From Mesorhizobium escarrei (GTDB lineage Bacteria > Pseudomonadota > Alphaproteobacteria > Rhizobiales > Rhizobiaceae), in the NCBI RefSeq assembly GCF_935825525.1, contig NZ_CAKXZT010000149.1, positions 62,001-126,000 of the forward strand: DNA of 64,000 bases, in the 5' to 3' direction. Below the pieces are notes generated by a model. It was not told the DNA's origin and did not search any database. It saw nothing but the letters and a program-made list of their open reading frames with translations. Position 1 is the stretch's first letter. Every line of letters begins with the position of its first letter. The position numbers were made by a program, and so were the translations under genes. Positions 44,607 through 64,000 of the stretch are shown in pieces.

Positions 44607-44608
44607 GC

Positions 44609-45758: not shown

Positions 45759-47072
45759 CTAGGACGGCGTTCCGATGGGGACAAGTAATTTGTCACCGTT
45801 GTGGTCGATCTCGATCAATTCACTCTTCTGGCGGGCTGCAAATCCTTTGTGGAAGATAATGGCGTTCATAAAGGCAAACGTCATTGCAAGCGCTTCGGTC
45901 CGCAACGGATAATCAACCAGTGAATGAATGAGAAGAAAGGAAACCGAGAGGAATGCCGCCTTCTGGAGCGGATCACGGCGAATTCTAGAAAGCGCAACAA
46001 ACAGCACGACGAAATACAACACCATCAATATAATGGCAGGAATTCCTCCTTCGAAGGCTATTTCAAGATAATCATTGTGAGCATGGTTAACATACTTCTT
46101 AAAGATCATCTCCTCGTTCTCGTATATCTGATAGGCCTTTTGAAAGCTTCCAAATCCGACACCCGTTGCCAAATTGTCTTGGATTCCTTCAACAGTGGTA
46201 CGCGCAAATTCTCCTCGTCCGAAAGCCGGATCGATCGCGTCGGCATCGATCTTCGTCCATGCGCCCACCGTGTAGGCTGAAAGTCCTATGAAAATCGCAA
46301 GGATGCTCCACCCACTTATCCTGGAGCGAGCCGAAAGAAAGACGACGGATAAGACGGTAATCGCCAACCCAATCAGAACACCGGCACGCGAACCGGCGGC
46401 CAAAAGCAGCAGCAAAAGCGTTATCAACCCGAGTGATCCGGACAAAAGGTGTCCACGGAACAGACCATAATAAACAATGAAGGGAATAGTAACAAAAAGC
46501 AAAGCTGAGAAATGATTCTGGTTGGCAAAAAGCCCAGCATTTATCGTAAAAGGCAGTAGTCCCTCTATGGCTATATCGGCAGAGAGTGAATATTGAATCG
46601 CTCCCGCCAAGCCGTTGCAAATGACACCCATAAAAAAGAACGGAAGAAGTGCGTGGACCTGCTCGGTGCGCAAACGCAACACGCTCAAGAAAAAAGCTGC
46701 TGACGCCACAAGATACAACAGACATTCGATCGTCCGCCCGACTCCGACACTGACGAAGCGGAAGCCACTTTCCCCGGCGAGCCATGGATCTCCGAGCAAC
46801 AGCTCTGGTCGCAAACCGTTGAATACCGCCGCAGGCAGCGGCACGACTTGAAAAATCACCAATGCCACAGCCAAGATAAGCAGCCACAGAACAGAACGGG
46901 GGATTGTCTGGTCAAAGGTCTGCGAAAAAACAAACGCGGCCGAGATGATTGCCACAATCTCAATCAGTGTGTCCGTATAAAGACCACTTGCAGTACCACC
47001 GCCGATCAGCAGAGATATAAACAAAACCGATCCGAGGAGATATTTATCCCATTCCGATGGCCGGTCGCTCAA
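45759..47072 (-). CDS. O-antigen ligase/polymerase-like membrane protein
   Basis: A 437-residue inner-membrane protein of the O-antigen ligase (Wzy/WaaL-like) family with about twelve hydrophobic helices and the family's large periplasmic loop near residues 290-340 (GVGFGSFQKAYQIYE followed by NHAHNDYLEIAFEGG, whose HNDYLE is diagnostic). No ATG lies near the start of similarity; TTG 47072 overlaps the upstream stop as TTGA and has GAGAG upstream. It probably polymerises or attaches the polysaccharide made by this locus and is its most distal gene. Confidence 0.85.
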   Translation of the reverse strand: MSDRPSEWDKYLLGSVLFISLLIGGGTASGLYTDTLIEIVAIISAAFVFSQTFDQTIPRSVLWLLILAVALVIFQVVPLPAAVFNGLRPELLLGDPWLAGESGFRFVSVGVGRTIECLLYLVASAAFFLSVLRLRTEQVHALLPFFFMGVICNGLAGAIQYSLSADIAIEGLLPFTINAGLFANQNHFSALLFVTIPFIVYYGLFRGHLLSGSLGLITLLLLLLAAGSRAGVLIGLAITVLSVVFLSARSRISGWSILAIFIGLSAYTVGAWTKIDADAIDPAFGRGEFARTTVEGIQDNLATGVGFGSFQKAYQIYENEEMIFKKYVNHAHNDYLEIAFEGGIPAIILMVLYFVVLFVALSRIRRDPLQKAAFLSVSFLLIHSLVDYPLRTEALAMTFAFMNAIIFHKGFAARQKSELIEIDHNGDKLLVPIGTPS

Positions 47073-48328
47073 GATGAAAGTCTCTCGATGCTCAATTTGT
47101 GCATTACCAATGTACCGACATATCGAAAGCGCCAGCTCTCGGCAATGGCGGCAGTCTCCAGCTTCAACAATTGCATGGGGCACCGACCAGGTCCAACCGA
47201 AAACTCCTGGCTCAGGGCCTGGCGATTGTATGTACCCTCTGGAATACTGAACCGCGCTATTTCGCTGGCCTGCCCCACGCATCTGATCGACCAGAACAAT
47301 TCCTTGGGAAGCTTCAAGGTCCTTGCAGAGGCGATCAGAGAAATCTTGTAGGAACCTGGAGGCAATTCAACATACTGTTGAAGAGCTGTGTTCTTAACCG
47401 GCGTATTCAGGAAGCGGACGATCGCTCCACTCTCGCCTTCGACCGCTTCTTCAGATGATACAAACTTTACTTCCATGCCCGACTGATCGCCGACCTGCCA
47501 ATCGAAAGGCTTGCCGCTCGACACCGGCTGAAAGGTGCTGTTGAAAATATATCCACCCAACTTCCGTTCTTCATCAGACAGGCTGAAAAGAAACAACCGA
47601 TATGCTGGTTCATATCGTTTCTGATTGATAAAACCATTGATCACAAAGGACAATTCGTTCGATTTTGGCGGTGCGCCTGATCCAGTCAAATCGAGCAACA
47701 GCCGGTTTGCGGAATCGAGCCCTTCGGGAGTTCTGCCGAGAGTGGCGAACAGACTGGTTCTCCAGGGCGCCTCTGCTTTGACGGCTGCCAGCACTGCCTG
47801 GTACCCGTCGGGGCTTGAAAGGATTGTTGGCAGGCCCTCGGCGACGGCCGGAAATCGATCTGGCCATCGCCTTAGCAATATATCAATCTCACCGGCAGCC
47901 TTTGCCAGATCGCCTATCTCGATCGAGTGGCCAATGGACCTTTGGAGCGCGTGGATTTCGGTCTTCGATAACTTTCGAGCTTGGTCGAAGAATTCATAGG
48001 CCTCTTCTTTTTTGCCCTCTCGGTATTTGATCTCGCCGATCAGACTGTAGAGCCGTGCGTCCGCAAGGTCAAAACGAAGCGCGCTTTCGGCCTTGGCAAG
48101 CAATGCGTCGAGATCGGGAGCATTGCTTGTATCGTTCAGGTCGTGAGTAATCTCGCCTATCAACGCATTGACGTTCAACGGATCCAGCGCGAGGGAAACG
48201 GTTGGTGTTTCGTTTTCAAGAAACCGACTTAGCCCGATCGACGAAGCCGCCAACACTAGAACGGATGCGGCGAACCAAACGCCTGAACGCCGTAGATTTC
48301 GCATAAGCGGGCTGGTCTGCTCCGTCAT
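47069..48328 (-). CDS. Membrane-anchored TPR-like protein of polysaccharide locus, function unknown
   Basis: A 419-residue protein with an N-terminal membrane anchor (VWFAASVLVLAASSIGLSRFL, about residues 16-36) and a helical, tetratricopeptide-like region (residues 60-150: ADARLYSLIGEIKYREGKKEEAYEFF). A second, beta-rich C-terminal half contains LPPGSYKISLIASAR, like a carbohydrate-binding or jelly-roll fold. ATG 48328 has GAGGG upstream. It overlaps the 3' end of the Wzc-like gene by about 113 bp in another frame, which is unusually long. Position between the Wzc kinase and the ligase suggests a role in assembly or export. Confidence 0.75.
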   Translation of the reverse strand: MTEQTSPLMRNLRRSGVWFAASVLVLAASSIGLSRFLENETPTVSLALDPLNVNALIGEITHDLNDTSNAPDLDALLAKAESALRFDLADARLYSLIGEIKYREGKKEEAYEFFDQARKLSKTEIHALQRSIGHSIEIGDLAKAAGEIDILLRRWPDRFPAVAEGLPTILSSPDGYQAVLAAVKAEAPWRTSLFATLGRTPEGLDSANRLLLDLTGSGAPPKSNELSFVINGFINQKRYEPAYRLFLFSLSDEERKLGGYIFNSTFQPVSSGKPFDWQVGDQSGMEVKFVSSEEAVEGESGAIVRFLNTPVKNTALQQYVELPPGSYKISLIASARTLKLPKELFWSIRCVGQASEIARFSIPEGTYNRQALSQEFSVGPGRCPMQLLKLETAAIAESWRFRYVGTLVMHKLSIERLSS

Positions 48329-50588
48329 CGACTTTGCCCTCAAGTTTCGGGGTTCCGTAGTCGTAATACTGGTAGTTCATGTATTTGTAGCCGTAGTTGT
48401 AATCGAACTTGTTCACTGCAAACTTCGACATCGCGGCTCCGACCACGTTCGCGCCGGCAGCTCGCAGGCGCTTCAACGCTGTCTTCGCCGACTTGCGCGT
48501 CACCTGATTGGTAGAAATGACCATCAATGTGCCCTCGGCAAGCCGGCTGAGGATGGGCGCATCTGAAAGGCCGACGATCGGCGGGGCATCGATTATGACG
48601 AGATCAAAGCGTTTGCCGAGATTGGTAACGATGAGTGCCATCTTCGGTGAAGAGAGCAGGTCAGCAGGGTTGGGTGGGATCGTTCCGGAAGTCAGAACGG
48701 TCACATTAGGATATTTTGTCGCCCTGAAAATGCTTGCCAGATCCTCCTTGCGGACGGTGTTCGTCAAGAGATTGCTCAGTCCGATTGTGTTGTCGAGACC
48801 AAACAGGCGGTGAAGATTGGGCTTTCGAAGATCGCCGTCGACAATGAGAACCCTGGCACCGAGCGCGGCAAAATCCTGTCCGAGCTTGAACGAGGTGGTC
48901 GACTTGCCCTCCGAGGGTTCCGAACTCGTGACCAGCAGCGATCGCGGCGCGCCTTCGGCGCCGGAGAACTGCAATGACGTTCGAAGCGAACGGTAGGCTT
49001 CGGACAGTCCCGATTTCTGATCGGCGATGCTGGCTATGAGTTCCCGGTCATCGACAAGCGGTAGGATGCCGAGCATCGCCAATCCCAGCTCCTTTTCGAT
49101 CTGCTCAGGATTGGTGAAGGTGTTGTTCAACAACTCAATTATGTAAATTATTGACGCGCTGAGCGCCAGGAAAAGAGCCAGAGCGACCGCAAGATTGACA
49201 CTCAGGCGTGGAGAATAAGGATTATTAGGCTGCGTCGCGAAATCGACAATTGCCGCACTTTGTGTCTTGAGTTCCGAGCTCACACCAACCTCGTTCAGCT
49301 TGGCAATCAAATTGTCATACTGAGAGCGGTTTGAATCTACTTCTCGCTTCAAGATGGTGTATTTAATGTTTTTGTCGTTGAAGATGACCTGCTGCGTCTC
49401 CATCTCGGCAAGTTTTGTCTTAAGGTCGGCCTCCTTGTTCTGAGCCTCCTGGTATTTCTGCCGCAGTGAATCGGTTATCGTCAAAACGCCGTTGTCATAA
49501 AGCCGCTGCAGTTCCTTGATCTGCGCCTGAAGCTGCTGCATCTCTGGAAAACCGGGCTTCAATATGCCCAGCTTCTGCTGATACTGGCTGGTCAAATCCG
49601 ACAGCTTCTCGGTGATTTTCTGCAGACCCTCGCTTTCCAAGACTGGGCCGAGGCTCGACCCCCGACCTTTGTCTATCTGGTCCACCATCCGCCCGGCATC
49701 GAGACGTTCCTGGATTGCTGTCGCGAGCGCGGTGTTGAGCGTCTCGATGTTCGACCCTATCAGCGATTTTTCTTCGCCGGTTATCGTGATGCCCGCATCC
49801 TTTGCATAGGCGACGAGTTCCTCTTCGGATTTCTGAAGCTTTTGCTTTACCTGCAGAACCTGTTCCTGGATGAACTGCCGTGCCAGGTCCGACGTCTCGC
49901 TAGTCTGATCGAGGCGTTGATCGATAAAACTTTGCGCGACCTGATTGGCTATGTCACTTGCATATTTCGGGTTCTGGTCGGCAAACGCAATCGACAGCAG
50001 GCTTGTGTTGCTGACCAGCGTGACCGTGAGGTCATTCATCACGCGACCGATGGCAATCTTCTCACGTTCCTCCGGGGTTTTCTCTTCTATGGAAGGCGCC
50101 TTTGAAATTCCGAACGCACGATAGAAAATATTGCTAGGCGAGAAGTTCGGGGTCGGAAACAGGAAATCCGGCTTTTCGCTGAGCCCCAGTTGGAATACTA
50201 CGCGCTGGGCCAAAGCCCGGCTTTTCAGCTTTTCACGGGCGGTTTGAAAGGCGCGCAGGTCGCTGCTTTCAGAAACCACTTCAATGTCCTGGAATACCTT
50301 GGCCGAAGGAACCAGCACTTCCAACTGCGTTGTTGCCAAATATTTTGGCGTCTGCATCATAGTAACAACCATGCCGGCAACCAGCCCGGCTGCCGCCATC
50401 ATCACTATCAGCCACCGATACTGGACAACATAAAACAGCAGCCTGAGGGGATTGAAGCGCTCGTCGTGCTCCGAATAATCGCGGCCATACGAGCTATAGT
50501 TTTGCGCACCGTCATAATACAGTTCGGCAGACAAGGCTTGGCCATGCCCTGGGCCTGCAATTTGATGCTGTCTATTGCGATCGAGCAT
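48216..50588 (-). CDS. Wzc-like chain-length determinant / tyrosine autokinase
   Basis: A 790-residue bacterial tyrosine kinase and co-polymerase. Order: cytoplasmic N-terminus, membrane helix near residues 58-77, a Wzz domain with long coiled coils (about 210-430), a second helix (about 470-490), and a C-terminal BY-kinase domain with Walker A SSEPSEGKST (about 555-564), Walker A' IVDGDLRKP (about 582) and Walker B VIIDAPP (about 663). A Tyr-rich autophosphorylation cluster (residues 729-744, eight Tyr) is followed by 45 further residues. It sets chain length and gates export with the Wza-like lipoprotein upstream. Confidence 0.93.
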   Translation of the reverse strand: MLDRNRQHQIAGPGHGQALSAELYYDGAQNYSSYGRDYSEHDERFNPLRLLFYVVQYRWLIVMMAAAGLVAGMVVTMMQTPKYLATTQLEVLVPSAKVFQDIEVVSESSDLRAFQTAREKLKSRALAQRVVFQLGLSEKPDFLFPTPNFSPSNIFYRAFGISKAPSIEEKTPEEREKIAIGRVMNDLTVTLVSNTSLLSIAFADQNPKYASDIANQVAQSFIDQRLDQTSETSDLARQFIQEQVLQVKQKLQKSEEELVAYAKDAGITITGEEKSLIGSNIETLNTALATAIQERLDAGRMVDQIDKGRGSSLGPVLESEGLQKITEKLSDLTSQYQQKLGILKPGFPEMQQLQAQIKELQRLYDNGVLTITDSLRQKYQEAQNKEADLKTKLAEMETQQVIFNDKNIKYTILKREVDSNRSQYDNLIAKLNEVGVSSELKTQSAAIVDFATQPNNPYSPRLSVNLAVALALFLALSASIIYIIELLNNTFTNPEQIEKELGLAMLGILPLVDDRELIASIADQKSGLSEAYRSLRTSLQFSGAEGAPRSLLVTSSEPSEGKSTTSFKLGQDFAALGARVLIVDGDLRKPNLHRLFGLDNTIGLSNLLTNTVRKEDLASIFRATKYPNVTVLTSGTIPPNPADLLSSPKMALIVTNLGKRFDLVIIDAPPIVGLSDAPILSRLAEGTLMVISTNQVTRKSAKTALKRLRAAGANVVGAAMSKFAVNKFDYNYGYKYMNYQYYDYGTPKLEGKVDDGADQPAYAKSTAFRRLVRRIRSSVGGFVDRAKSVS

Positions 50589-50634
50589 GGTGCGAGGTAA
50601 TCCTAGGTTTATCTGACCGGGCCGCGATTTACGG

Positions 50635-51420
50635 TCACGGAATCACAGCAATACGGGCTGCACTTGAGGCGACGCCGAGGGCGTCCTTGAGATTGTTTAT
50701 GGCAATTTTCGATTTCGAGGCGAAGACGACAATCTTGTCGCCACCAAAGATGCGTGGGTTGCGGCTCTTGCCGGCACGTATCTGCTCCACATTGTAATTC
50801 GCGACCAGGGTGTTTTGGCCGACATTGCGATAGACAAAGACTTTTTTTGCATCGCCAACGGCATTGAACCCGCCAGCAAGGGCGATCGCATCAATGAGAG
50901 AAGAATTGCTCGACACCGGAAAGATACCGGCCCTGGTGACTTCGCCATCGACGGTAACGCGCTGTCCGATCGATTCCTTGACGAAGACCGACACATCGGG
51001 CGACTGGAGATAGTTGGCGCCGTAAGCCGTTTCGATTTCCTGCTCCAACTGACGGACGGTCTTCCCTGCCGCGGTGACGGTTCCGATAAGTGGAAGCGAA
51101 ATTTGCCCGCCAGGGTCGACTTGAACGGTTCTGTTCAGATTGTCGACCTGGAACACATTTACCTCCAGCACATCGTTAGGCGACAAGGGCTGCTCGTTGC
51201 CGTTCTGGCTGTTTTGCGGCGCAGGCAGTTCCTTTACGACCTGCAGGGCGCCGCCGGCGGAGAGCGGCGCCGACGATGACGTCAGTTGCAGCGCATCGAC
51301 CGATGTCGGCGAAGACGATGATGTCGTCGACGAGGTGCTCGTGCAGGCAGACATCGAGAGCGAAGCGAGCAAGGCACATATCGCGCCCGTATAATTTTTT
51401 GCGAAATGAAACACGGCCAC
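50635..51420 (-). CDS. Wza-like polysaccharide export lipoprotein
   Basis: A 261-residue outer-membrane polysaccharide exporter (OPX). A lipoprotein signal ends in LLASLSMSAC (lipobox Cys at about residue 26). A Ser/Thr-rich linker follows, then the Poly_export domain LSPNDVLEVNVFQVDNLNRTVQVDPGGQISLPLIG (partly given) and a SLBB domain with RVTVDGEVTRAGIFPV. No C-terminal amphipathic helix as in E. coli Wza is evident. The GTG start shares one base with the phosphatase stop. Confidence 0.9.
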   Translation of the reverse strand: MAVFHFAKNYTGAICALLASLSMSACTSTSSTTSSSSPTSVDALQLTSSSAPLSAGGALQVVKELPAPQNSQNGNEQPLSPNDVLEVNVFQVDNLNRTVQVDPGGQISLPLIGTVTAAGKTVRQLEQEIETAYGANYLQSPDVSVFVKESIGQRVTVDGEVTRAGIFPVSSNSSLIDAIALAGGFNAVGDAKKVFVYRNVGQNTLVANYNVEQIRAGKSRNPRIFGGDKIVVFASKSKIAINNLKDALGVASSAARIAVIP

Positions 51421-52229
51421 TACGCTGCCCCACCCTTCAACAGGCGACCCAATCCTGCAAAGCGACCGAAATTGCCGGGGCTTGGCTTTTTCGAGCGTGC
51501 CTTTCCGACCGGCTCGAGGGGCCGGTTCGCCAATATCTCGCCTGGACGTTTCAACACCATATTGCGGGCCTCATCTTCCCCACATCGCTTCGCGGCAAGG
51601 GCAACCGCCTGCGAAAGCCCAGGGCGCCGGCGGGTAGCGCCGTGGGTGTCCGAAGCGATAATATCTACTCTACCCTCGTCAATCAGCTTTTCCGAATAGT
51701 AAAGCGCCGTGCGTCCAAAAGCACCAACAATCGAGTCTGCGGTAAGTTGAATTAGGCAACCCACTGCATTCAATTTCTCGACAACATCGTAATTCGTCTT
51801 GATCCAGGTTAGTCGCTCAGGATGGGTAAGAATCGGAACGAACCCGGCGTTTATGAGGCGCAGAGCCAAATCTTCCAGCTTTGGCGGCAAGACGTGGTGC
51901 GGCGGTTCGAATAGAAAATAACGCGACCTGTTCAAGGTCGGCACGCTATCCAGCGCCAATTGCTCCGGCAGATCCGGCGCTATATGCACATCGGCGCCGA
52001 CGTAAAGAGCAAGCGGTATTGCGGCGCGGCTCAGCGCCTGCTCCAACTCTTGAACCGCTCGGGAAATATTTGCCGATCCGTTTTCATACATGCCTGGTAC
52101 GATATGCGGCGTACACGCCATATGGGTCGTTCCGTCGGCTACCGCCAGCCGCGCCATTTCCAGCGATTCAGCAAGGCTGCGCGAGCCGTCGTCAAGACCA
52201 GGCAAGATATGGGAATGCAGGTCGATCAT
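51420..52229 (-). CDS. CpsB/CapC-type tyrosine-protein phosphatase (PHP fold)
   Basis: A 269-residue metal-dependent phosphatase of the CpsB/YwqE group. PHP motifs: IDLHSHILPGLDDG at the N-terminus, ACTPHI (about residue 40), ILTHPERL and IIASDTHG. Such enzymes remove phosphate from the Tyr cluster of Wzc-like kinases, so it probably counters the kinase two genes downstream. ATG 52229 is chosen because the fold begins there; the frame runs on to 52316. No additional transmembrane segment. Confidence 0.92.
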   Translation of the reverse strand: MIDLHSHILPGLDDGSRSLAESLEMARLAVADGTTHMACTPHIVPGMYENGSANISRAVQELEQALSRAAIPLALYVGADVHIAPDLPEQLALDSVPTLNRSRYFLFEPPHHVLPPKLEDLALRLINAGFVPILTHPERLTWIKTNYDVVEKLNAVGCLIQLTADSIVGAFGRTALYYSEKLIDEGRVDIIASDTHGATRRRPGLSQAVALAAKRCGEDEARNMVLKRPGEILANRPLEPVGKARSKKPSPGNFGRFAGLGRLLKGGAA

Positions 52230-52492
52230 TGACGTTTGTGGCCGCACTGGAGCAACGTGACGATTTCTCCCGAATAAAAGGTAAATGCGCCACCCGCACG
52301 ATAGCGAATGACGCATTCGTCAAATCCATGCAATGCGGTAGATGCCAAATCCAAGCTATTCGCTGACAGCGAGCGGTATGGTGGATGAATTCTATCAACA
52401 CCTCCTGCTCCAGCCAGCGCGCGAAGGCACTGCGGCACCGGCAATACGGCAGAGGCAGTCACACGCCCCTGCTATATTGTCTACTGGGCGAC
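52230..52492. other. Non-coding gap before the phosphatase gene
   Basis: No gene is recognised in these 263 bp. They include the likely promoter of the phosphatase-OPX-kinase unit. No clear -35/-10 pair was assigned. Confidence 0.4.
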
Positions 52493-53751: not shown

Positions 53752-53864
53752 AAATCCTCACTCCCGGCCAAGCACGTGTCTCTATCGCCTCTGGCGGAGA
53801 CGGCCGGACGACTCACGGTCGCCTGGTAGCATCCATTTCAATCGAAGAAATTCCGTCAACTGCT

Positions 53865-56105: not shown

Positions 56106-56225
56106 TTGGGCATCCCTGCAGAGAGCTAGGTCGTATTGAATCACCTGCGCGCGCAGTCCGCACAGGATGCGCTCCTTCACAAGCTCCGCCGCCAATCGTG
56201 CCGACTTCGAGTGACCCAAGCAGCA

Positions 56226-56846: not shown

Positions 56847-56870
56847 TTGAATCCCCTAGAGATGGTACCA

Positions 56871-57800
56871 TTAATTTTCCTCGACAACGAGGCCGGTTCG
56901 ATCCTTAATAGCGTTGGCTACTGAAATCCCCTTTTGTTTTGCAAATTCTTCAATCTCGAAGACTTTGGCATCGACCAAGCCGCGATACCAAAGCCCCTGC
57001 AAGAAATGGAAATAGAACCCCGGTCTGCCATCAAGAAATCCAAGCCGTATCAAATAGCGGTAGAGGAAGTAGGCTATCACTCGAACGCCGGCGGGGGTGC
57101 GTAGATAAATCTTTTCCTTAAGAAAGCGTCGCGCCCGGGCCTGTGGGCTGGCGCCGGAAACCGGCAGTTTGTCTGCTTTTAGAAACTCGAATCGTGCATT
57201 CAGCAGATCGATAGCTTCCCGAGAAGCATATTGGTTATGCTTTGCCGTCCACCACGTTAGAGAATTCATATTGATGTCTGAGATTACGATGTCTGATTTT
57301 TGAACATTTCCGCTCACTATTACATGCTCGTCCATCCAGCGCTGCTCGCAGCGCCCACGGCCGTTGCGCCAAAGCCGAAGCTGCCAACTGGGCTCGATCG
57401 CCCCATATCTCATCCGGCGGCCAAGGAAATAAATTCTGCGCTGCACAAGTATGCCGTCGCAATCACGGTCAGCTTGCGAAACAACCTCGGAAAGCCGATG
57501 TGACGTTGCTGGATCCAGCACTTCGTCAGCGTCTATTCGCATGAGCCAGCCCCCCTTGCCAACAAGGGTGGAGATTCCGAAATTCAGTTGCGTCGCATAA
57601 TTGATCCAGGGATGACGAATTACCTCGGCACCAAGCTTTTCCGCTATCTCGACCGTTGTATCGGTCGACCCGCTGTCGATGACCGTAATGCTCTCTACCA
57701 GCTCCTTACAACTCTCTATACACCGGCCGATGTGAACCGACTCATTTAGAGTAAGAATAACTGCGTGAATTTTGACCGCTGCGTCGCTATCATCGCTCAT
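56871..57800 (-). CDS. Family 2 glycosyltransferase
   Basis: A 309-residue inverting GT2 with a GT-A fold: HAVILTLNESVHIGRCIESC, VIDSGSTDTTVEIAEKLGAEVI, and the DXD motif in LMRIDADEVLD. The WaaE/KdtX group has the same TL-NE start. It has a C-terminal basic, partly hydrophobic part (RTPAGVRVIAYFLYRYL) that may attach to the membrane. ATG 57800 is preferred to an upstream TTG (57830). It transfers a sugar in building the repeat unit. Confidence 0.9.
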   Translation of the reverse strand: MSDDSDAAVKIHAVILTLNESVHIGRCIESCKELVESITVIDSGSTDTTVEIAEKLGAEVIRHPWINYATQLNFGISTLVGKGGWLMRIDADEVLDPATSHRLSEVVSQADRDCDGILVQRRIYFLGRRMRYGAIEPSWQLRLWRNGRGRCEQRWMDEHVIVSGNVQKSDIVISDINMNSLTWWTAKHNQYASREAIDLLNARFEFLKADKLPVSGASPQARARRFLKEKIYLRTPAGVRVIAYFLYRYLIRLGFLDGRPGFYFHFLQGLWYRGLVDAKVFEIEEFAKQKGISVANAIKDRTGLVVEEN

Positions 57801-57832
57801 TTCCGAATAACCATTTGTGGCCTGGGCCAAGA

Positions 57833-58432
57833 CTAACGTGAACCTATCTGGCGGGCGGGATTGCCGGCTACTACAGTTCCATCAGGAACGTCCTTTGTGA
57901 CTACCGAACGCGCCCCCACAACGGCCCTACTCCCAACCCGCACACCGGGGCCAACGAAGGCCTCAGCCGCCACCCAGGCACCCGTCTCAATAAGTATCTC
58001 TCCAACGACAAGCGGGAAAGCTGGATCGCGAAAGTTATGCGTCGCGGCGCAAAGGTAAGCGCCTTGACTTACTGTCACGTGATCCTCGACCGTGATCGAC
58101 CCTACCGAGTAGCAATTCACTCTAGGCCCGAGGCTGCTCACATCCCCTAGACGCAAGTTCCAAGGTGCCCAAATCCGAGCAGATGGGTAGGGGTGAGCGC
58201 CCCTGCCTACAGTTGCGCCAAATAGCCGCAGGAGGAAGCACCGCCAACCATGAAATGCAGCAGGTGACCATCTGTACAAGGTGGCTTCTACAATCCGCCA
58301 AGCGAATCGTCTCGATTTATCTTTTAGATTTGGCGCGGGAACCGACTTTAGCCGAGTGCGCGGTGGGGTCGATGAGCGACCCGCAGCTAAATCAATCATT
58401 TGTGCAGTCTTGGTCGCAAGAGGGGAAATCAA
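57833..58432 (-). CDS. WcaF-type left-handed beta-helix acyltransferase
   Basis: A 199-residue hexapeptide-repeat acetyltransferase. Repeats of the IxxGxx type run from about residue 80 to the end: VSSLGPRVNCYSVGSITVEDHVTVSQGAYLCAATHNF (in part), then GAWVAAEAFVGPGVRVGSRAVVGARSVVTKDVP. H and N residues in the CAATHNFRDP loop fit the acetyl-CoA site. The TTG at 58432 has GAGGAT upstream and overlaps the FkbM stop as TTGA; ATG 58399 is the other candidate. It is expected to O-acetylate a polysaccharide unit. Confidence 0.87.
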   Translation of the reverse strand: MISPLATKTAQMIDLAAGRSSTPPRTRLKSVPAPNLKDKSRRFAWRIVEATLYRWSPAAFHGWRCFLLRLFGATVGRGAHPYPSARIWAPWNLRLGDVSSLGPRVNCYSVGSITVEDHVTVSQGAYLCAATHNFRDPAFPLVVGEILIETGAWVAAEAFVGPGVRVGSRAVVGARSVVTKDVPDGTVVAGNPARQIGSR

Positions 58433-59139
58433 CCAACGCTATCCTCCCCAGGCATCGTCGTCTTTAGGGCGAAACCGTATTCTTTTCCGCTTTCAGAAAC
58501 GTAGAAAATCTCGTAGCCGGCGGATTTTAGCTGTTTTACAGCCTCGCGCGTATCGTGGTCCGTTCGTCCGTACATTCCGTGATGAAATTCGACTAGTAGT
58601 TGAAATGGTCGATAACTCCCTGACAAAATGTCACGGAGTACCTTATACTCGAACCCTTCAATGTCCATTTTTACAATCTGTGGCTTGCCAAGCTTCAACT
58701 GCTCCACAATTGAACCGAGCCGCATTACTCTTGCCGCGACGGCATCTCCGACATTTTCACCGTGACTAGGGGCTTCGGAGAATGAAACGTGGGCCTCATT
58801 TTGAGGTGCGAAAAAACGCGCCTCTCCGTCGTAGTCTGAAATTCCCACAGGGTGAAATATAAGATTGGCGGAAGCGACCTGTTTTTGCATCCAGGCCTTA
58901 CTCTTTGGTGTCGGATCAAAAGCATGGACGAGACATCCAAATCGCGCAATTGCACCCAAATCGAAACTAATATCTTCCCCCACTCCAAATGATAGGATCG
59001 TAGATCCATAACGTGTATTCGCCAGCAACGGCCAGCCACCATATTTCGTACCGAGAAATACATATTTGTAATTACCATCGACCCGGTGAAGTGACGGCCT
59101 AAAAAACCTCATTAGGACTTTGCGAATTCCTTTCTTCAT
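58429..59139 (-). CDS. FkbM-family methyltransferase
   Basis: A 236-residue enzyme of the FkbM group, SAM-dependent O-methyltransferases found in surface-sugar loci. STILSFGVGEDISFDLGAIARFG, HAFDPTPKSKAWM, and IVKMDIEGFEYKVLRDIL carry the family pattern. ATG 59139 overlaps the stop of the preceding glycosyltransferase (ATGA). Confidence 0.87.
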   Translation of the reverse strand: MKKGIRKVLMRFFRPSLHRVDGNYKYVFLGTKYGGWPLLANTRYGSTILSFGVGEDISFDLGAIARFGCLVHAFDPTPKSKAWMQKQVASANLIFHPVGISDYDGEARFFAPQNEAHVSFSEAPSHGENVGDAVAARVMRLGSIVEQLKLGKPQIVKMDIEGFEYKVLRDILSGSYRPFQLLVEFHHGMYGRTDHDTREAVKQLKSAGYEIFYVSESGKEYGFALKTTMPGEDSVG

Positions 59140-60293
59140 GGAACTAACCTGTTTGAAATCGAACATTGATATACATCCAACATGCGCTTCGCGACCTTGG
59201 GCCAAAGGAATAGATTTTCGACAACCTTCACCGCTCTGTTCGCATAGATCTCGATCTCCGATCTGCCAATTTTAAGGAAATCTTCAAGATCACGCTGCAT
59301 CTCAACAGGTGATAGAGAGAGACGTTTCCCAGCCCCAAAATAAAAAATGATATCTAAATTACAAGCTGTAGTCATTAATACTGGCTTACCGTAGGATAGC
59401 GCCTCCAGAACCGATACAGGGACCCCTTCACTTTTAGATGGCAAAACAAAAGCATCGGCATTCCGAAATGCCGAATCTTTCATATCTCCGAATAATGGGC
59501 CGGTAAAAACAACAGTTTTCTCAATTCCAAGGGTTTTCACCAACGATTTAAGTTCTTGCTCATGGCCTCCTTGATCCCAGCCTGCGATTATTAGCCGCCA
59601 ACTAGCAGTTCCTTTGCGATCAGAAGTCGCTCGTGACCATGCACTTATGAAAGCTATGAGATTTTTCTTTGGATGAATGCGCCCCAGGAAGAGCATCACT
59701 TTAGCCTCCTCCGGAATTCTACCTTTCCATGGCGCCGCCTTACCCACGCCACCTTTTGGCAAATCGACTCCGTTGGGTACCACGTGTATGGGATTTTTTA
59801 TTCCGAATGCTCGAATCGCAGCCGCCTCAGGCTCACATAGTGCATGAAAAGCCGCCGCTTCTCTCAAATGCGCCGCTTCATACGCCTTCGTGACTAGATA
59901 CTTTTTCAGCCTGGAGTTTCTCACCGCCCAAGGGTCAAGCATACCATGTGGCGAAATGACGTAAGGTCTGCCGGTTCGATGAGACCACTGCAACACAGAC
60001 CGAGAATTGTGCATCCAAAGCCCGTGACTGTGAACTATGTCCGGCTTCCAATCTACCAGCGCCTGAGTCAGTCCGGGGCTGTAGCCTAATGCACGAGGAC
60101 CGATAGTCGGCAAAGCCACAGCCGGAGCACCAGTCCATTGGGCACGATCGGCATTCGACCACTCCGCGTCCATGAGCCCAAAAACTCGTACATCCGCTCC
60201 GAGCTTTTCTAGCTGGCGCGATAGGGACTGGAGAGCAGCAGACACCCCTCCACCTGTCCGTGACAAACTTGCTGAAACCATCGCCAGCTTCAT
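59136..60293 (-). CDS. Family 4 glycosyltransferase
   Basis: A 385-residue GT-B retaining glycosyltransferase. N-terminal SLSRTGGGVSAALQSLSRQLE, HSHGLWMHN; C-terminal LFLGRIHPKKNL and PSKSEGVPVSVLEALSYGKPV, with the donor-phosphate Glu-x7-Glu. ATG 60293 overlaps the preceding stop (ATGA). Substrate unknown; it builds the polysaccharide repeat. Confidence 0.92.
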   Translation of the reverse strand: MKLAMVSASLSRTGGGVSAALQSLSRQLEKLGADVRVFGLMDAEWSNADRAQWTGAPAVALPTIGPRALGYSPGLTQALVDWKPDIVHSHGLWMHNSRSVLQWSHRTGRPYVISPHGMLDPWAVRNSRLKKYLVTKAYEAAHLREAAAFHALCEPEAAAIRAFGIKNPIHVVPNGVDLPKGGVGKAAPWKGRIPEEAKVMLFLGRIHPKKNLIAFISAWSRATSDRKGTASWRLIIAGWDQGGHEQELKSLVKTLGIEKTVVFTGPLFGDMKDSAFRNADAFVLPSKSEGVPVSVLEALSYGKPVLMTTACNLDIIFYFGAGKRLSLSPVEMQRDLEDFLKIGRSEIEIYANRAVKVVENLFLWPKVAKRMLDVYQCSISNRLVP

Positions 60294-61402
60294 TGGGTCA
60301 CCTGATTCTCGACTTGTCTAACCAACTCGACAAATCGACTTGCCATATCTTCGGCATTAAAGGACGCTGATATGGTATCGACTGCTGCAATTGACATATC
60401 GGTTAGCCGCGCTGGGTCGCCCAGCACTGTCGCCACTACTCGAGCTAAGTCATCGACATCCCCGCGCCTGAACTCCATGCCATTAATGTCAGGCCGGAAT
60501 GCAGCGATTTCCGGCATATGGGCCCATCGGTTATCTGGCAGAATTGCCGGCAACCCATAGCTTAGACCGTGAATTAGACTTAGACCCACGCTGCCAGGGT
60601 ACACAAACGCTTTACACTGGTTCGCAATATGGCCTATCCTGGGTTCATCCGTAACTGCGCCGTACCAAGCAACGCGGCGGCCGATGCCTAACTCTTCAGC
60701 CAGCTTTAGCATTTCCGATTGCTTTGAGCCGTCGCCAATTACGTCGAGTGTTACCTCGGAGCAAATTGATTTAGATAAAGCCAGTAGGAGAAATTCTAAG
60801 TGCGCTTTTTCTTCCACCCTCCCGATAAAAAGGAGATCTCGATACCTGGAAGACGGCTCATATTTCTCGCGAACTTTAACGACCTCATCTGTATCAATGC
60901 CGTTATTCAACGCAGAAATCAACTTGTTTGAGAGTCGCCCCCTGGCGGAGTTGTTGTATTCTGCGATCTCTTGGTCGGTGTAAAATAGCACCGCATCTGC
61001 CAGCTGCATTATGGCCAACCGAAGCACTGCCCGCCAACCGCGGCTTGTTGAAGACCAGTAGTGGCCCCACCAGATCGTTCGCGCCCCAAGCATTTTAGCT
61101 TTCAAGAGGAGGGCTAGATTGGAGAGGCATCTCGGCGCGCCTGAAACCACCACAATGTCGCCTCGACCCATTGGAACCGATAATGCATCGGTCTGCCAAT
61201 AAAGGCCCGCCAGAAGATGCCTATAAATCCCTAGTGGGCGTTGCCATTCGCGCCCTGCCATCCCCACGCTTAAAACATCCAGGTCCGATCCCGATGAGAA
61301 GACTGAGAATCTGGGGCCGAGTCTCTTGGAAAGGCGATCGAAGATTCCGTACCGATATTTCGGAAGGGCCGGCTGGATTACGGTAACTCGGTTAGCGCTC
61401 AT
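60290..61402 (-). CDS. Family 4-like glycosyltransferase
   Basis: A 370-residue GT-B glycosyltransferase: VIQPALPKYRYGIFDRLSKRL, a central DLLFIGRVEEKAHLEFLL donor-site helix, then VYPGSVGLSLIHGLSYGLPAI. ATG 61402 is chosen because the longer frame to 61549 would run into the polymerase gene. Only 20 bp separate it from that stop. Confidence 0.88.
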   Translation of the reverse strand: MSANRVTVIQPALPKYRYGIFDRLSKRLGPRFSVFSSGSDLDVLSVGMAGREWQRPLGIYRHLLAGLYWQTDALSVPMGRGDIVVVSGAPRCLSNLALLLKAKMLGARTIWWGHYWSSTSRGWRAVLRLAIMQLADAVLFYTDQEIAEYNNSARGRLSNKLISALNNGIDTDEVVKVREKYEPSSRYRDLLFIGRVEEKAHLEFLLLALSKSICSEVTLDVIGDGSKQSEMLKLAEELGIGRRVAWYGAVTDEPRIGHIANQCKAFVYPGSVGLSLIHGLSYGLPAILPDNRWAHMPEIAAFRPDINGMEFRRGDVDDLARVVATVLGDPARLTDMSIAAVDTISASFNAEDMASRFVELVRQVENQVTQ

Positions 61403-61422
61403 AGGACGGACTTTCGATACCC

Positions 61423-62748
61423 CTATTGCGGGGATAGAAATTCGAGTGCCCCTTTTGGCCTCGGCATGAATGATCGTCTTTCCCATTTTGATCCATACCA
61501 AAAAGTAATGACCATAACGGACGCCACCCAGAAAGCCGAGTTGCCCCAAAGGCTTCCACTTCCAGCACTCGCAATTGCTTCTCTGATGAATAGAACCGCC
61601 GCAAAAACCGCGACGAGCGGGAACCTCCTCGACCGTATGACTCCTACGGTGGCTCGGATAGCCAGAAGAAGGTGAACAGCGAAAGGTATGGATCCCAACA
61701 CACCCAAAGCCATTAACGACTCCAAATAGATGTTGTGCGGGTAAAAATTTGAACGCATTTCAACCGCAAAACGACCGAAGGCCCAATCATCTGCGAATTG
61801 CTGCCACGCTCCGGCGAATAAAAGGGATCTCGTTTGGGTTGAACTGTCCGTTTCTGCGTCTATCGCGGAGAGTCGTTGAGACACAACGTCCACATACTCT
61901 GTTCCGAACAGCGCGAGCAAGGCGGCTATCACTACCGCCGCTCCTAAAAGAGTCACCAGCCGCCGTCGACCTTCCAAAAGCAGTGCATACAGCACGAGGG
62001 ATCCGCCCCCCGCCAAGTATGCTCCACGAGATCGCGCCCAAACAGCTACGGACAATAGAATTGGAACAAAGATCATCGCTTCGATCGTAAGCCGTCGAGA
62101 CCGCTTGAATGAGAGTAGATAATAGATAATGAAGCCAAAGGCCGTGTGGCCCATTGCAATCGGGTTTATCTTCTCGAGTGACAACCGTGACCCACCAATG
62201 ATCGTTAATTGCTGTCGGTTCAAGAACAAGCCAATTAGAAAAATGACGCAAAGCAGACTCATTGCTACGGAAAAATGCTCATCCGACATCTCGCGAAAGG
62301 TTCTTGATAACAGCAAAGCTGATAACACCCCACTCACCAAAAAGAAACCAAACACGATTCCGTTTCCCGGCTTTATCTCGATACCTAAAATAACAACGTT
62401 CTCAACAAGACGAAGGGAATACAATAGCACGAATATTATGAACGGATATAGAAACAAATACCTCTGCCCTTTTCCCGACCCTGAGAAAAAGAACGAAACA
62501 ACCACAATAGACGTTATAATCGCACGTGAGAATATTGACCCAAAATTTCCATCTGGGAAAAATCTGCTCACCAAGCCGCCGAACGCATAATAACCGAGCA
62601 CCGCCAAGGCAAATCCAGAGGCAGGAGAAACCAACGCCGACATGAGGGAAAACCGGCGTTGACGACCATTCGCATACCCGGAAGCTCTGCCCAGGAGCCT
62701 AGTTTCGGAGATGCCTCGACGTTGGCCACTCCGCTCACCTACATGCAT
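61423..62748 (-). CDS. Second O-antigen polymerase/ligase-like membrane protein
   Basis: A 441-residue membrane protein with about ten hydrophobic helices and a periplasmic loop near residues 310-360 containing RSNFYPHNIYLESLMALGVLG. The HN-YLE motif marks the O-antigen ligase family. SRGAYLAGG (about residue 270) is another family point. The gene is AT-rich relative to the left of the window. The real start may be ATG 62643. It is the likely polymerase of the repeat unit, since it sits beside the flippase and glycosyltransferases. Confidence 0.85.
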   Translation of the reverse strand: MHVGERSGQRRGISETRLLGRASGYANGRQRRFSLMSALVSPASGFALAVLGYYAFGGLVSRFFPDGNFGSIFSRAIITSIVVVSFFFSGSGKGQRYLFLYPFIIFVLLYSLRLVENVVILGIEIKPGNGIVFGFFLVSGVLSALLLSRTFREMSDEHFSVAMSLLCVIFLIGLFLNRQQLTIIGGSRLSLEKINPIAMGHTAFGFIIYYLLSFKRSRRLTIEAMIFVPILLSVAVWARSRGAYLAGGGSLVLYALLLEGRRRLVTLLGAAVVIAALLALFGTEYVDVVSQRLSAIDAETDSSTQTRSLLFAGAWQQFADDWAFGRFAVEMRSNFYPHNIYLESLMALGVLGSIPFAVHLLLAIRATVGVIRSRRFPLVAVFAAVLFIREAIASAGSGSLWGNSAFWVASVMVITFWYGSKWERRSFMPRPKGALEFLSPQ

Positions 62749-62760
62749 CGACTAAGCTCC

Positions 62761-64000
62761 CTACCGTCTGTGAAAAAAGCGCGCGCCAACCAAAATGCGA
62801 TACTTTTCCACCAGCGCCACACTCGTCTCGGAGAAAAACAAACCAGGGAAGAGAAACGTCGGCACTACAAACGCGCCACTAGCGAGGCAGGCGCTAGCCA
62901 AAGCCGACATCCATGGCGGAAGCAATTGCTGCAGGGCGACGTTAATTAAAAGACCGCCGGCTGAACAGCCACCCCACAACATCAGACAAGGTACCGTCTC
63001 GCGAAGCTCGCCTGAAAGACTTCTTCCTAGAATACTTGCGGTAAGCCACGCTCCGGGAACAACCATGGCTATCATAACGACACTAACGCAAACGGTGGCA
63101 CGTTCCAGAGAAACTGGCGCAAACATGAAAAGTGAAAGAAGCGATAGAGCAAGCATCACCAATTGGAGAGCGATCCTAACTCCTTGTCGGCCTGCAGATC
63201 TGGCAAGAATGGCGTTCGCCCTATCTAACCCGCGAAATGGTAAAACAGCCGCCATTATCTGAATCAATATCCCAGCGGGCTCCCAGGCCTTCCCAAAGAC
63301 TATTGGCGTCCATTCGCCTCCACAGATGATTATGAAAATCGATAGCGGCGCGCTAAACAGAAAAGTAATTATCTTCGTATTGCCGAATTCCCTTCCAACC
63401 GCCTTAATATCTTTTGCGCCAGATAAGCGTGGAAACGAAAATACGTCCATAGGAGTCAATATAAGATTGCCCGCTATTGTTCGTATGTTGCTAGCCCTCT
63501 GGTAAAAGCCTACGGCAGCCGTGCCGGCCACCCAACCCACGACCAGCCTATCTAGAGTCATTGCCGCGGTGTCTATCATCTTCAACCAAACATAGCTCCA
63601 AGAAAACAACAGCAAATCCTTCGCCTCCTGCCGGTGGTAAGCTATCTTTGGGCGAGTTGTGATCCACGAGCAGAACAACGTTGCGAGTTGGTAAGTTATC
63701 TGCCCCCCAACGAGCGCCCAAACGCCGAATCCTGCCAGTGCAGATACCAACGATACGACAACGTTTAATATTAATGATCCAATCTCGATTTTGGCTATTG
63801 CCTCAAATCTTTGATCCTTTTGAAGCAGCCCTCGTAAAACGGCCTGGAATGGTGCAACCAGGACAATTATTAGCAGCCATCTTGCAATATGAAGCTGATC
63901 TCCTGAGCCAGAAAACGATGCATATCGAGTTACTACCAGTAACATACAGCTCGTGCAAACAACGGAAGAAATTAAAGCGATAAAACTCGCTGTCGCAGCA
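62761..64000 (-). CDS. Polysaccharide flippase (Wzx/MATE-like), 5' end beyond window
   Basis: A membrane protein of the polysaccharide-flippase (MVF/MOP exporter) superfamily, at least 412 residues visible, with about eleven hydrophobic helices. The frame stays open to the right edge and reads SFIALISSVVCTSC before the first internal ATG at 63945, so the start is outside. LDRLVVGWVAGTAAVGFYQRASNIR and AILIQIMAAVLPFRGLDRANA-like stretches are typical of the group. It would carry lipid-linked repeat units across the inner membrane. Confidence 0.85.
   Translation of the reverse strand, partial: AATASFIALISSVVCTSCMLLVVTRYASFSGSGDQLHIARWLLIIVLVAPFQAVLRGLLQKDQRFEAIAKIEIGSLILNVVVSLVSALAGFGVWALVGGQITYQLATLFCSWITTRPKIAYHRQEAKDLLLFSWSYVWLKMIDTAAMTLDRLVVGWVAGTAAVGFYQRASNIRTIAGNLILTPMDVFSFPRLSGAKDIKAVGREFGNTKIITFLFSAPLSIFIIICGGEWTPIVFGKAWEPAGILIQIMAAVLPFRGLDRANAILARSAGRQGVRIALQLVMLALSLLSLFMFAPVSLERATVCVSVVMIAMVVPGAWLTASILGRSLSGELRETVPCLMLWGGCSAGGLLINVALQQLLPPWMSALASACLASGAFVVPTFLFPGLFFSETSVALVEKYRILVGARFFHRR

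Follow-up and report, generated by a model that had tools for sequence, protein, structure and literature searches.

A second PF04932 protein in the fixed module of a Mesorhizobium-type exopolysaccharide locus: a proposed O-oligosaccharyltransferase-type ligase

Why should one exopolysaccharide locus encode two proteins of the O-antigen ligase family (PF04932)? The question is raised by a gene cluster of a Mesorhizobium-type genome, most of which lies within the window, i.e. the whole stretch of 64,000 nucleotides that was analysed. A preliminary description of this DNA suggested that one of the two proteins serves polymerisation and the other attachment, and that three further proteins of the locus could be assembly factors. 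Here, we computed the gene content, modularity, co-inheritance, clade membership, motifs and predicted folds of the locus and of its relatives.

A complete Wzx/Wzy operon with additional genes

The locus is an ordinary, complete Wzx/Wzy exopolysaccharide operon plus extras, since the standard parts are present and the remaining genes lie past the window edge, which cuts the locus and leaves ∼8 kb more outside. The flippase, polymerase, PCP co-polymerase, OPX protein and priming transferase of a Wzx/Wzy-dependent locus were all found, and the flippase, OPX lipoprotein, Wzc kinase and CpsB phosphatase named in the preliminary description are all recognized by Pfam/TIGR models. All locus genes in the window are on the minus strand. 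The Wzx-type flippase gene (62761-64000; PF13440/PF01943) runs past the window, and the full gene (L008:762-2240) matches PF13440 with E=1.1e-49. Beyond the edge are the flippase remainder, a protein without known family, a pyruvyl transferase, two glycosyltransferases, a GDP-mannose dehydratase, a priming sugar transferase and a NusG-like gene.

Adjoining the flippase is the first PF04932 protein, LIG1 (61423-62748; E=1.1e-9), followed by two GT4 glycosyltransferases (60290-61549, PF00534; 59136-60293, PF13579/PF00534), an FkbM-type methyltransferase (58429-59205, PF05050), a hexapeptide acyltransferase (57833-58432) whose PF00132 score is slightly below the cut-off (24.9 versus 27 bits), a GT2 glycosyltransferase (56871-57830, PF00535), a methyltransferase (56226-56846, PF13489) and a mannose-1-phosphate guanylyltransferase fused to an AGE-family epimerase/isomerase (53865-56219; PF00483, PF22640, PF07221), the real start of which is probably downstream. 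Then come a Cys-rich accessory protein with an N-terminal hydrophobic anchor (53287-53751), a FecR-like exported protein (52493-52975), a CpsB/CapC PHP phosphatase (51420-52316; PF19567, E=1.5e-54) that may start downstream of its annotated position, an OPX export lipoprotein (50635-51420; PF02563 and SLBB, with a lipobox-like LSMSAC) and a Wzc-type polysaccharide co-polymerase with tyrosine autokinase (48216-50588), which is above the cut-offs of PF02706 and of the BY-kinase model TIGR01007 and slightly below that of PF13807. The last two genes encode a TPR protein, hereafter TPR-CBM (47069-48328), and the second PF04932 protein, LIG2 (45759-47072, 437 aa; E=7.3e-16). The TPR gene coordinates follow from an ATG kept in 32/32 related loci and imply an overlap of 113 nt with the 3′ end of wzc. 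The corrected LIG2 start codon, TTG in the window, overlaps the TPR stop in all 32 loci (TTG in 27 and GTG in 5); a LIG2 start at 47282 was rejected as an artefact of an overlapping frame.

Rhizobial Wzx/Wzy loci (PssL/PssT/PssP/PssN) have the same flippase, Wzy, Wzc-type PCP, OPX and priming transferase, to which the locus described here adds TPR-CBM, the FecR-like protein and LIG2. In the main text of a 2017 review (PMC5748678), neither 'TPR' nor 'tetratricopeptide' occurs. Some likeness exists to XrtA/PEP-CTERM clusters (PrsT TPR, PEP_O_lig), the OPX protein matching best the XrtA export model TIGR03027 and the TPR protein matching TIGR02917 weakly. However, these scores are far under the curated cut-offs and the FecR-like protein ends in an acidic tail. 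The exosortase model PF09721 has no match in the own genome and is present in 2 of 20 TPR-positive genomes.

LIG1 in a variable cassette, LIG2 in a fixed module

Both PF04932 assignments of the preliminary description hold, with 58.7 bits for LIG2 and 38.6 bits for LIG1 against a curated cut-off of 31.7 bits. As judged from related loci, the two proteins are of two kinds, LIG1 belonging to a variable cassette and LIG2 to a fixed module that also contains the FecR-like protein, CpsB, OPX, Wzc and the TPR protein. Among 32 Mesorhizobium loci located via the TPR gene, full-length LIG2 is present in all 32, Wzc in 30, OPX and the FecR-like protein in 29 each and CpsB in 27. LIG2 keeps 71-87% identity across 20 strains, whereas a LIG1 homologue is found in the cassette stretch of 7/20 strains with 24-54% identity and was not found there in the other 13. 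Variation with the sugar cassette, the mark of a Wzy, is thus seen for LIG1 and not for LIG2. In the tree, LIG1 clusters with LIG1-type genes from other cassettes, and it is probably a glycan-specific Wzy polymerase. Wzy proteins are described as enormously variable and able to discriminate linkages (PMC5748678). Other cassettes contain multi-TM proteins without known family; in three distant loci (L065, L092 and L096) a protein of this kind lies right next to a gene resembling a flippase, and of these three flippases two score below the Pfam cut-off.

The 20 TPR-linked PF04932 proteins form a single 22-row clade (support 100/99; one row relabelled). The TPR-link label changes twice on the tree, compared with a mean of 17.6 changes after shuffling, and none of 500 shuffles gave a value as low. 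Three motifs mark the clade, NxNH (21/22), HSxxDYP (20/22) and YPLRT (21/22), and none of the 47 PF04932 proteins outside the clade in these genomes has them. When the clade profile was compared with the PDB, the best relative was the oligosaccharyltransferase 9rmk (E=2.7e-8), followed by 7tpg (E=1.8e-5; 'putative cell surface polysaccharide polymerase/ligase'), which we take to be WaaL, in a ranking that is an unfair contest inasmuch as superfamily polymerases may be scarce in the PDB. No relative was found in the PDB with the profile of a WaaL-like clade. Apart from the LIG2 clade, a 13-row PF04932 clade has one member in each of 13/20 genomes (own copy C186:9002).

Residues that separate PglL from WaaL, and residues common to both, have been listed (PMC3643930). 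At the common positions (R224, R298 and H349 in Neisseria PglL numbering), the LIG2 clade has R in 17/20, R in 20/20 and H in 20/20. Five of the seven separating residues are identical (N180 in 19/20, G316 and G318 in 20/20, H400 in 18/20, P406 in 20/20) and two are conservatively replaced (Q178 by N in 19/20, E404 by D in 20/20), which falls short of strict identity. LIG2 is like PglL of Neisseria and Acinetobacter in its PF04932 core and in the equivalents of these kept residues, but unlike it in the two replacements, in three extra invariant residues (H187, R391 and T392), in its lack of a PF15864 match and in the position of its gene, within an operon for exopolysaccharide, together with Wzc/OPX and its TPR-CBM partner. 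With WaaL it has in common PF04932 and the catalytic Arg/His positions, and it differs by the PglL-type motifs. For the PglL_A model PF15864, the window LIG2 gave no match at E<=5 in a search whose filters remove most matches above 0.1. Other models were matched as well: TIGR00947 (IctB) by two of the 20 clade members (best 6.8e-8), TIGR03097 (PEP_O_lig) weakly by one, and PF11846 ('membrane-bound polymerase' C-terminus; best 0.01) weakly by seven. The proposed split between polymerisation and attachment gains comparative support, LIG2 being constant with oligosaccharyltransferase-type motifs and LIG1 variable without them.

A counter-case was observed in genome G050, where the sole PF04932 protein is of the LIG2 clade and adjoins the module, the two PF01943 flippases being far off. 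A crude scan of 60 kb gave no other polymerase candidate there, so that LIG2 could be the polymerase in that genome.

The TPR-CBM, FecR-like and Cys-rich proteins

The same genes recur together across related genomes, and the locus genes are therefore linked beyond chance. In 146 genomes of the genus, the three additional proteins singled out by the preliminary description are all tied to the polysaccharide locus rather than occurring independently of it. The TPR gene is present in 49 genomes; the FecR-like gene in 47 of these (always within 10 kb) and in 0/97 TPR-negative genomes; and the Cys-rich gene in 41, of which 40 are TPR-positive, 38 of those having it within 10 kb. Among 297 genomes of the order, the TPR-CBM family occurs in 32 (all E<=1.8e-44; next match 4.8e-10), LIG2-profile matches (E<=3.3e-20) in 30 and both in 29. 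A LIG2-profile match lies within 10 kb at 29/35 TPR loci of this sample; in G045 the two are on separate contigs, and in G099 no Wzc was found adjoining the pair.

TPR-CBM had been described as a membrane-anchored TPR-like protein. Besides the anchor and the TPR solenoid, its predicted structure (mean pLDDT 65.9, middling confidence) has a C-terminal beta-sandwich domain of CBM4-like fold, with putative sugar binding. This domain matches 1gui (Z 9.0, rmsd 2.9, 109 aligned), 4d0q (Z 8.6) and 4bj0 (Z 8.4). In Foldseek, CBM chains are at ranks 9, 10, 13-18 and 20-22, ranks 1-8 being AspH chains that match the whole model with TM 0.2. PF02018 (CBM_4_9) matches 1/24 family members (7.7e-4), not that of the window.

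The FecR-like protein is small and exported, as had been claimed, but the FecR label has no support in Pfam: 0/27 homologues match PF04773 at E<=1. It consists of a signal peptide, a small beta domain, a linker, a C-terminal hydrophobic segment and the acidic tail. Both by sequence profile (E=0.015) and by fold (Z 8.2, rmsd 2.3, 69 aligned; next Z 4.2), the core best matches the cell-surface anchoring domain 5ix9 (PDB molecule 'Antifreeze protein'), presumably a Marinomonas adhesin domain. It differs from 5ix9 in standing alone as a protein of ∼160 residues, in having a hydrophobic C-terminal segment and in lacking adhesin repeats. A putative anti-sigma factor (4m0h/4m0n) is a weak fold match (Z 3.9). 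The penultimate residue is Ser in 27/27 homologues, and Ser or Thr in 12/13 proteins from other genera; the G050 member has a Thr/Ser run in its linker. PglL genes are reported often to adjoin their target gene (PMC3643930), and in five distant loci (L071, L075, L076, L079 and L080) the FecR-like gene immediately precedes LIG2, in the same orientation. It is present in 12/19 TPR-positive genomes other than the own genome; the misses in G156, G009 and G130 concern short stretches only, and an iterated profile and tail scan did not find it in G278, G190, G124 and G099. It is a candidate acceptor or anchor.

The third protein is indeed Cys-rich, with six Cys invariant in 21 homologues, none of which matches an SNase model of Pfam (PF00565, E<=1), so that its 'SNase-like' label lacks profile support; the PDB gave no worthwhile match. 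Its gene is locus-bound in the genus but dispensable, because it is absent or partial in 12/32 related loci. A role as assembly factor is plausible for TPR-CBM, while the FecR-like protein would fit a substrate or anchor equally well.

A proposed role for LIG2 and its alternatives

We consider it reasonably, if not strongly, probable that this is a two-part Wzx/Wzy locus in which LIG2, as an O-oligosaccharyltransferase-type ligase, passes chains to a conserved acceptor, with TPR-CBM in chain binding and docking. What we infer in this scheme is that LIG2 transfers glycans, in which sequence the steps occur, what accepts the chain and how the proteins dock. With its glycosyltransferases, its flippase and LIG1 as Wzy, the variable cassette would make a strain-specific glycan, which the fixed module would take over after its synthesis. 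LIG2 would accept undecaprenyl-PP-linked chains or repeat units of any sugar composition and transfer them, on the periplasmic side, onto the conserved acceptor, possibly the FecR-like protein. In the inner membrane, the CBM-like domain of TPR-CBM would bind the chain and the TPR part would dock Wzc and/or LIG2. The Acinetobacter PglL pathway, which is reported to branch from capsule synthesis, is a precedent for a common Wzx/Wzy repeat-unit supply (PMC6333632). In a narrower version, which we regard as unlikely in this exact form, the module couples polysaccharide to protein: LIG2 would O-link the exopolysaccharide to the operon's FecR-like protein (linker or penultimate Ser/Thr) while TPR-CBM presents the chain, and the glycoprotein would hold the polysaccharide on the cell via its surface-anchor-like domain and hydrophobic tail. 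Co-occurrence in the genus, the position upstream of LIG2, the penultimate Ser/Thr and the Thr/Ser run in G050 favour this coupling, and it is rated lower because the FecR-like gene was not found in the four genomes given above.

Alternatively, LIG2 might be a second Wzy polymerase, redundant or serving another linkage or repeat unit, with TPR-CBM as a co-polymerase accessory, a reading that we hold to be possible but rather doubtful. Going by the title of Toh 2008, a reference of PMC11340318, the polymerase step is reportedly redundant in holdfast synthesis. The PF04932 set of G050 comprises the LIG2-clade protein only, and the one further PF04932 protein of G145 is in the WaaL-like clade, with no second polymerase candidate in the 60 kb read. 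PF04932, to which LIG2 belongs, also includes polymerases (cf. PMC4594306). Against this, LIG2 stays constant while cassettes and Wzy candidates change, a separate Wzy-like gene adjoins the flippase in several loci, and the PglL-type motifs occur in none of the 47 other PF04932 proteins checked.

A further reading, which seems improbable, has LIG2 join chains to lipid A-core or to some other lipid and so give a cell-bound capsule; in its favour, 7tpg is the second-best solved relative of the clade, and WaaL joins O-antigen to the LPS core (PMC3643930). Against it, LIG2 carries residues reported in PglL and not in WaaL (PMC3643930); moreover, the separate 13-row clade would be the better WaaL candidate. 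That the extra proteins are regulatory or export passengers, and the two PF04932 genes a product of chance duplication or cassette exchange, would suit the patchy Cys-rich gene. It seems very improbable in view of the near-perfect co-occurrence in the genus and order samples and of the different clades of LIG1 and LIG2, which speak against a recent duplication.

How Gram-negative capsules and exopolysaccharides are retained on the cell is unsettled, and a 2025 review calls for more study of how LPS contributes to capsule retention (PMC12220298). Polymers of this kind are described as important in the legume symbiosis of rhizobia (PMC5748678). The finding cautions that a PF04932 gene in an exopolysaccharide locus is not automatically 'the polymerase'. 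With LIG2, a TPR partner of sugar-binding fold and a candidate acceptor, there are defined genes and a covalent bond to seek. If true, the coupling to the FecR-like protein would mean that some Gram-negative bacteria, scattered across one order of Alphaproteobacteria, anchor an exopolysaccharide through a protein. The ligase reading of LIG2 suggests that the polysaccharide coat might be attached to a partner instead of just being released.

Operon organization and gene starts

The exopolysaccharide operon is encoded on the minus strand of a genome of 7.71 Mb, and its larger part lies inside the window. The 5' part, beyond the window, carries a NusG-like gene followed by genes for a priming sugar transferase (PF02397), a GDP-mannose 4,6-dehydratase, two glycosyltransferases, a pyruvyl transferase, a protein of no known family and then the flippase. 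The protein whose gene (L008:2308-3591, L008 being this locus with its flanks) separates those of the pyruvyl transferase and the flippase has 427 residues, looks exported and gave no Pfam match. Within the window, the order is LIG1 (61423-62748), two GT4 glycosyltransferases, a methyltransferase, an acyltransferase, a GT2 glycosyltransferase, a second methyltransferase, a ManC-AGE fusion (53865-56219, a mannose-1-phosphate guanylyltransferase fused to an AGE-family epimerase/isomerase domain), the Cys-rich gene (53287-53751), the FecR-like gene (52493-52975), CpsB, OPX, Wzc, the TPR gene (47069-48328) and LIG2 (45759-47072). Directly downstream of LIG2, on the same strand, lie cysD and cysNC (42669-45598), a neighbourhood that raises a possible link to a sulfated polysaccharide; cysD is also present in 12 of 32 related loci, within the stretches read. 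Upstream of the operon, L008:11250-12164 and 19052-19615 code for almost identical portions of a single metallo-hydrolase-like protein, a pattern as after a duplication. Searches of the window for Rfam families and for tRNAs gave no match.

The TPR protein served as query against the genome collection to obtain the related loci, and the 32 named relatives of its gene are without exception from Mesorhizobium. The ATG start of the TPR gene is conserved in all 32, and in L029 a stop codon stands just ahead of it. The gene overlaps the 3' end of wzc by 113 nt; these final 113 nt of wzc (48216-48328), past its Tyr-rich stretch, double as the TPR 5' end in another frame. The LIG2 start codon (TTG in 27 loci and GTG in 5) overlaps the TPR stop in 32/32 loci. 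From these conserved starts within the preceding genes, the packing of wzc, tpr and lig2 appears to be of the kind seen in translational coupling.

Distribution of the TPR-LIG2 pair and its neighbours

The Mesorhizobium TPR profile matched in 20 of the 297 genomes of the order, and a broader profile built from those 20 genomes (A5) gave true matches in 32/297 at E<=1.8e-44, well separated from generic TPR noise, which begins at 4.8e-10. Across 385 genomes sampled from the class, matches at E<=5.6e-50 came from three outside the order (G604, G391 and G340, the latter with two copies), and G650 was ambiguous (E 5.3e-19). An independent LIG2 profile detected 30 of the 297 genomes at E<=3.3e-20; both families occur in 29 genomes (Fisher p=1e-35, a statistic that ignores relatedness), and G048 has a LIG2 match without the TPR family. 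Among 35 TPR loci, a LIG2-profile match lies within 3 kb in 15, within 10 kb in 29 and at 25 kb in one more. The contigs of the other five have no LIG2 match; four of these belong to assemblies of at least 270 contigs, whereas the fifth, G045, has 30 contigs and cannot be explained by such fragmentation. For this count, the G139 TPR gene, split across two frames, was taken as one locus, and eight weak LIG2 rows (E 1e-14 and weaker) were left out, the only one near a TPR locus being the second piece of the already counted G099 gene.

Of the 20 genomes found first, 17 have a Wzc gene next to the TPR gene, and OPX and CpsB are present in most, though not all, of their loci. Where Wzc was not seen, the G009 contig is only 4.6 kb long, G130 was read over 3 kb only, and G099 has no Wzc beside its TPR-LIG2 pair across 40 kb. 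In the 32 Mesorhizobium loci, full-length genes (at least 80% of the query) were counted for LIG2 in 32, Wzc in 30, OPX and FecR-like in 29 each, CpsB in 27 and the Cys-rich protein in 20; ManC-AGE occurs in 9/32, within 10 kb stretches. In L025, L026 and L027 the window-type CpsB phosphatase is absent or partial while TPR and LIG2 are full-length, and the kinase of these loci would need a different phosphatase.

A further upstream stretch was read in 20 of the 32 strains (20 kb, except 8.25 kb for L022), so that the cassette may be missed in some. LIG2 is 71-87% identical to that of the window across these 20 strains, whereas a LIG1 homologue was found in only seven of the upstream stretches, at 24, 25, 27, 36, 41, 53 and 54% identity, and not in the other 13, some of which possibly do not reach the cassette. 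The cassettes of other strains encode multi-TM proteins without known family; ten such ORFs were scanned, giving one flippase, one weak PF04932 match below the cut-off (E 0.0072), one weak DUF2304 match and seven without any match. LIG1, which diverges or was not found among strains that keep LIG2, thus behaves like a glycan-specific Wzy, unlike LIG2.

Two kinds of PF04932 protein

The 20 TPR-positive genomes contain 80 PF04932 matches, of which 69 were taken and 11 left out; after removal of one 219-aa row (<300 aa), 68 rows entered the tree. All 20 TPR-linked proteins fall within a 22-row clade (support 100/99), whose remaining two rows come from the fragmented genome G156. LIG1 lies outside it, grouped (100/100) with two genes of LIG1 type. 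A further clade (13 rows, 100/100), represented once in each of 13 genomes, qualifies as a WaaL candidate solely through this distribution; long branches make other placements unsure. The row G036_C14_130488, 7.7 kb from a TPR gene, was relabelled from 'TPR-adjacent' to 'near', being the LIG1-type gene of a cassette; under the old label there are 21 TPR rows, with one outlier. In that genome (loci L069 and L070), a stretch of about 15 kb holds two TPR-LIG2 pairs, and a flippase-LIG1-GT4-GT4 cassette resembling that of the window is also present. We rejected a recent duplication as the origin of LIG1 and LIG2, as they belong to different clades and their profiles prove to be just remotely related (probability 94.8, E 5.1e-8). 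A role of LIG2 as housekeeping LPS ligase was set aside as well, since the one-per-genome clade fits it better.

A profile of 20 divergent LIG2-clade members (alignment A6) matched 9rmk, annotated as an oligosaccharyltransferase, best among PDB entries (E=2.7e-8), followed by 7tpg (1.8e-5), with no third structure at E<=1. This broader alignment was needed, a Mesorhizobium-only one giving nothing at E<=1. The LIG1 profile retrieved just one unrelated chain (E=0.92), and the WaaL-like clade profile no relative. According to Schulz et al. 2013 (PMC3643930), Neisseria PglL-type enzymes conserve certain residues that WaaL lacks. The 9rmk residues carry exactly the published numbers in the HMMER alignment (Q178, N180, G316, G318, H349, H400, E404 and P406), and this coincidence suggests that the numbering of 9rmk follows Neisseria PglL. 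The LIG2 clade shares N180 (19/20), G316, G318 and P406 (20/20 each) and H400 (18/20); however, Q178 is replaced by N in 19/20 and E404 by D in 20/20. Because of these two differing signature residues, and because the PF15864 model does not match LIG2, we do not class it as a PglL. Its clade is marked by the motifs NxNH (21/22), HSxxDYP (20/22) and YPLRT (21/22), each found in 0/47 of the remaining PF04932 proteins in these genomes; of these 47, looser patterns of the first motif matched one and of the second none. These counts cover 69 rows, the two G156 rows being assigned to the LIG2 clade and a weakly attached 14th row to the WaaL-like group. Weak matches among the 20 members, to IctB TIGR00947 in two, PEP_O_lig in one, PF11846 in seven and PF13425 in five, do not settle the activity of LIG2.

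We favour, with moderate confidence, a role of LIG2 as a transferase. That LIG2 is instead a polymerase, a second Wzy, appears rather unlikely to us, although two genomes speak for it. G050 has a single PF04932 protein in 6.9 Mb, belonging to the LIG2 clade, and the sole other PF04932 protein of G145 is WaaL-like by clade. If LIG2 is a ligase only, genomes of this type need a polymerase from another family, and a crude multi-TM scan found none nearby in either. Thus, LIG2 may polymerise in some hosts.

Exported proteins of the locus

The AlphaFold2 model of the TPR protein (mean pLDDT 65.9) has an N-terminal helix (7-27), helical repeats (50-258) and a beta-sandwich (265-416). By Foldseek and VIA-align, the helical part resembles TPR proteins, and the beta-sandwich resembles CBM4, CBM22, CBM16, CBM6 and hyaluronan-binding modules (1gui: Z 9.0, rmsd 2.9, 109 aligned); TPR repeats dominate the VIA-align lists, so that families missing from them carry no meaning. 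PF02018 (CBM_4_9) matches 1 of 24 family members (7.7e-4). Eight residues, including the cysteines C350 and C383, are invariant in 24 divergent members, and all are inside the beta-sandwich.

In the FecR-like model, pLDDT is 81-91 in the blocks of residues 31-120, with low values for linker and tail. One match stands out, the cell-surface anchoring domain 5ix9, both by Foldseek (TMt 0.69, E 0.012) and by VIA (Z 8.2, the runner-up reaching 4.2), and it also ranks first by sequence profile (E=0.015). The tail consists of a hydrophobic segment and acidic residues, and its penultimate residue is Ser in 27/27 proteins; Ser or Thr occupies this position in 12 of 13 FecR-like proteins from other genera, a count that excludes the two of L063 (G209), the same Mesorhizobium contig as L030. 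A pattern built from these tails matched almost only FecR-like proteins among 11,695 reading frames. An exosortase/PEP-CTERM sorting signal was considered and rejected: the window genome has no exosortase match, only 2/20 TPR-positive genomes have one, and the tail end is acidic. We retain the tail only as a conserved feature. Some Mesorhizobium loci (L024, L030, L033, L034, L036 and L038) have two tandem FecR-like paralogues, both with acidic tail and penultimate Ser; the window genome has one copy.

In the distant loci L071, L075, L076, L079 and L080, the FecR-like gene immediately precedes LIG2 on the same strand, with Wzc and TPR on the opposite one. As PglL genes commonly adjoin the gene of their target (PMC3643930), this position makes the FecR-like protein a candidate acceptor for LIG2, taken as a ligase. 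The FecR-like gene was found in 12 of the 19 TPR-positive genomes besides the window's. In the long stretches of G278, G190, G124 and G099, neither profile nor tail scan found it; the pair can thus exist without the FecR-like protein, or with an undetected acceptor, which weakens the acceptor reading.

The preliminary description had proposed that these exported proteins could be assembly factors, with co-occurrence as a check, and the counts among 146 genomes of the genus agree with a tie to this locus. The TPR gene occurs in 49 genomes and the FecR-like gene in 47, all TPR-positive and all within 10 kb; the Cys-rich gene occurs in 41, of which 40 are TPR-positive (Fisher p 2e-36 and 6e-26, respectively, statistics that ignore relatedness). 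Seven of 50 Cys-rich matches, some divergent, lie more than 30 kb from a TPR gene or elsewhere. The Cys-rich protein has an N-terminal hydrophobic anchor and six Cys invariant in 21 homologues, and gave no family match; its earlier designation as SNase-like found no support in profile or PDB searches and was dropped. Its gene is absent or partial in 12/32 related loci, among them L017, read with a transposase-like frame, and is therefore accessory.

Among the papers listed by our search of the open-access literature, judged by titles and abstract openings, none was about the TPR-CBM/LIG2 pair, which is not proof of its absence from print. The genes of the operon are real, and its two PF04932 proteins are of two kinds. 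The TPR-CBM protein and LIG2, mostly together with the FecR-like protein, form a unit that is conserved among Wzc-type loci of this order and brings known kinds of parts into a new combination.
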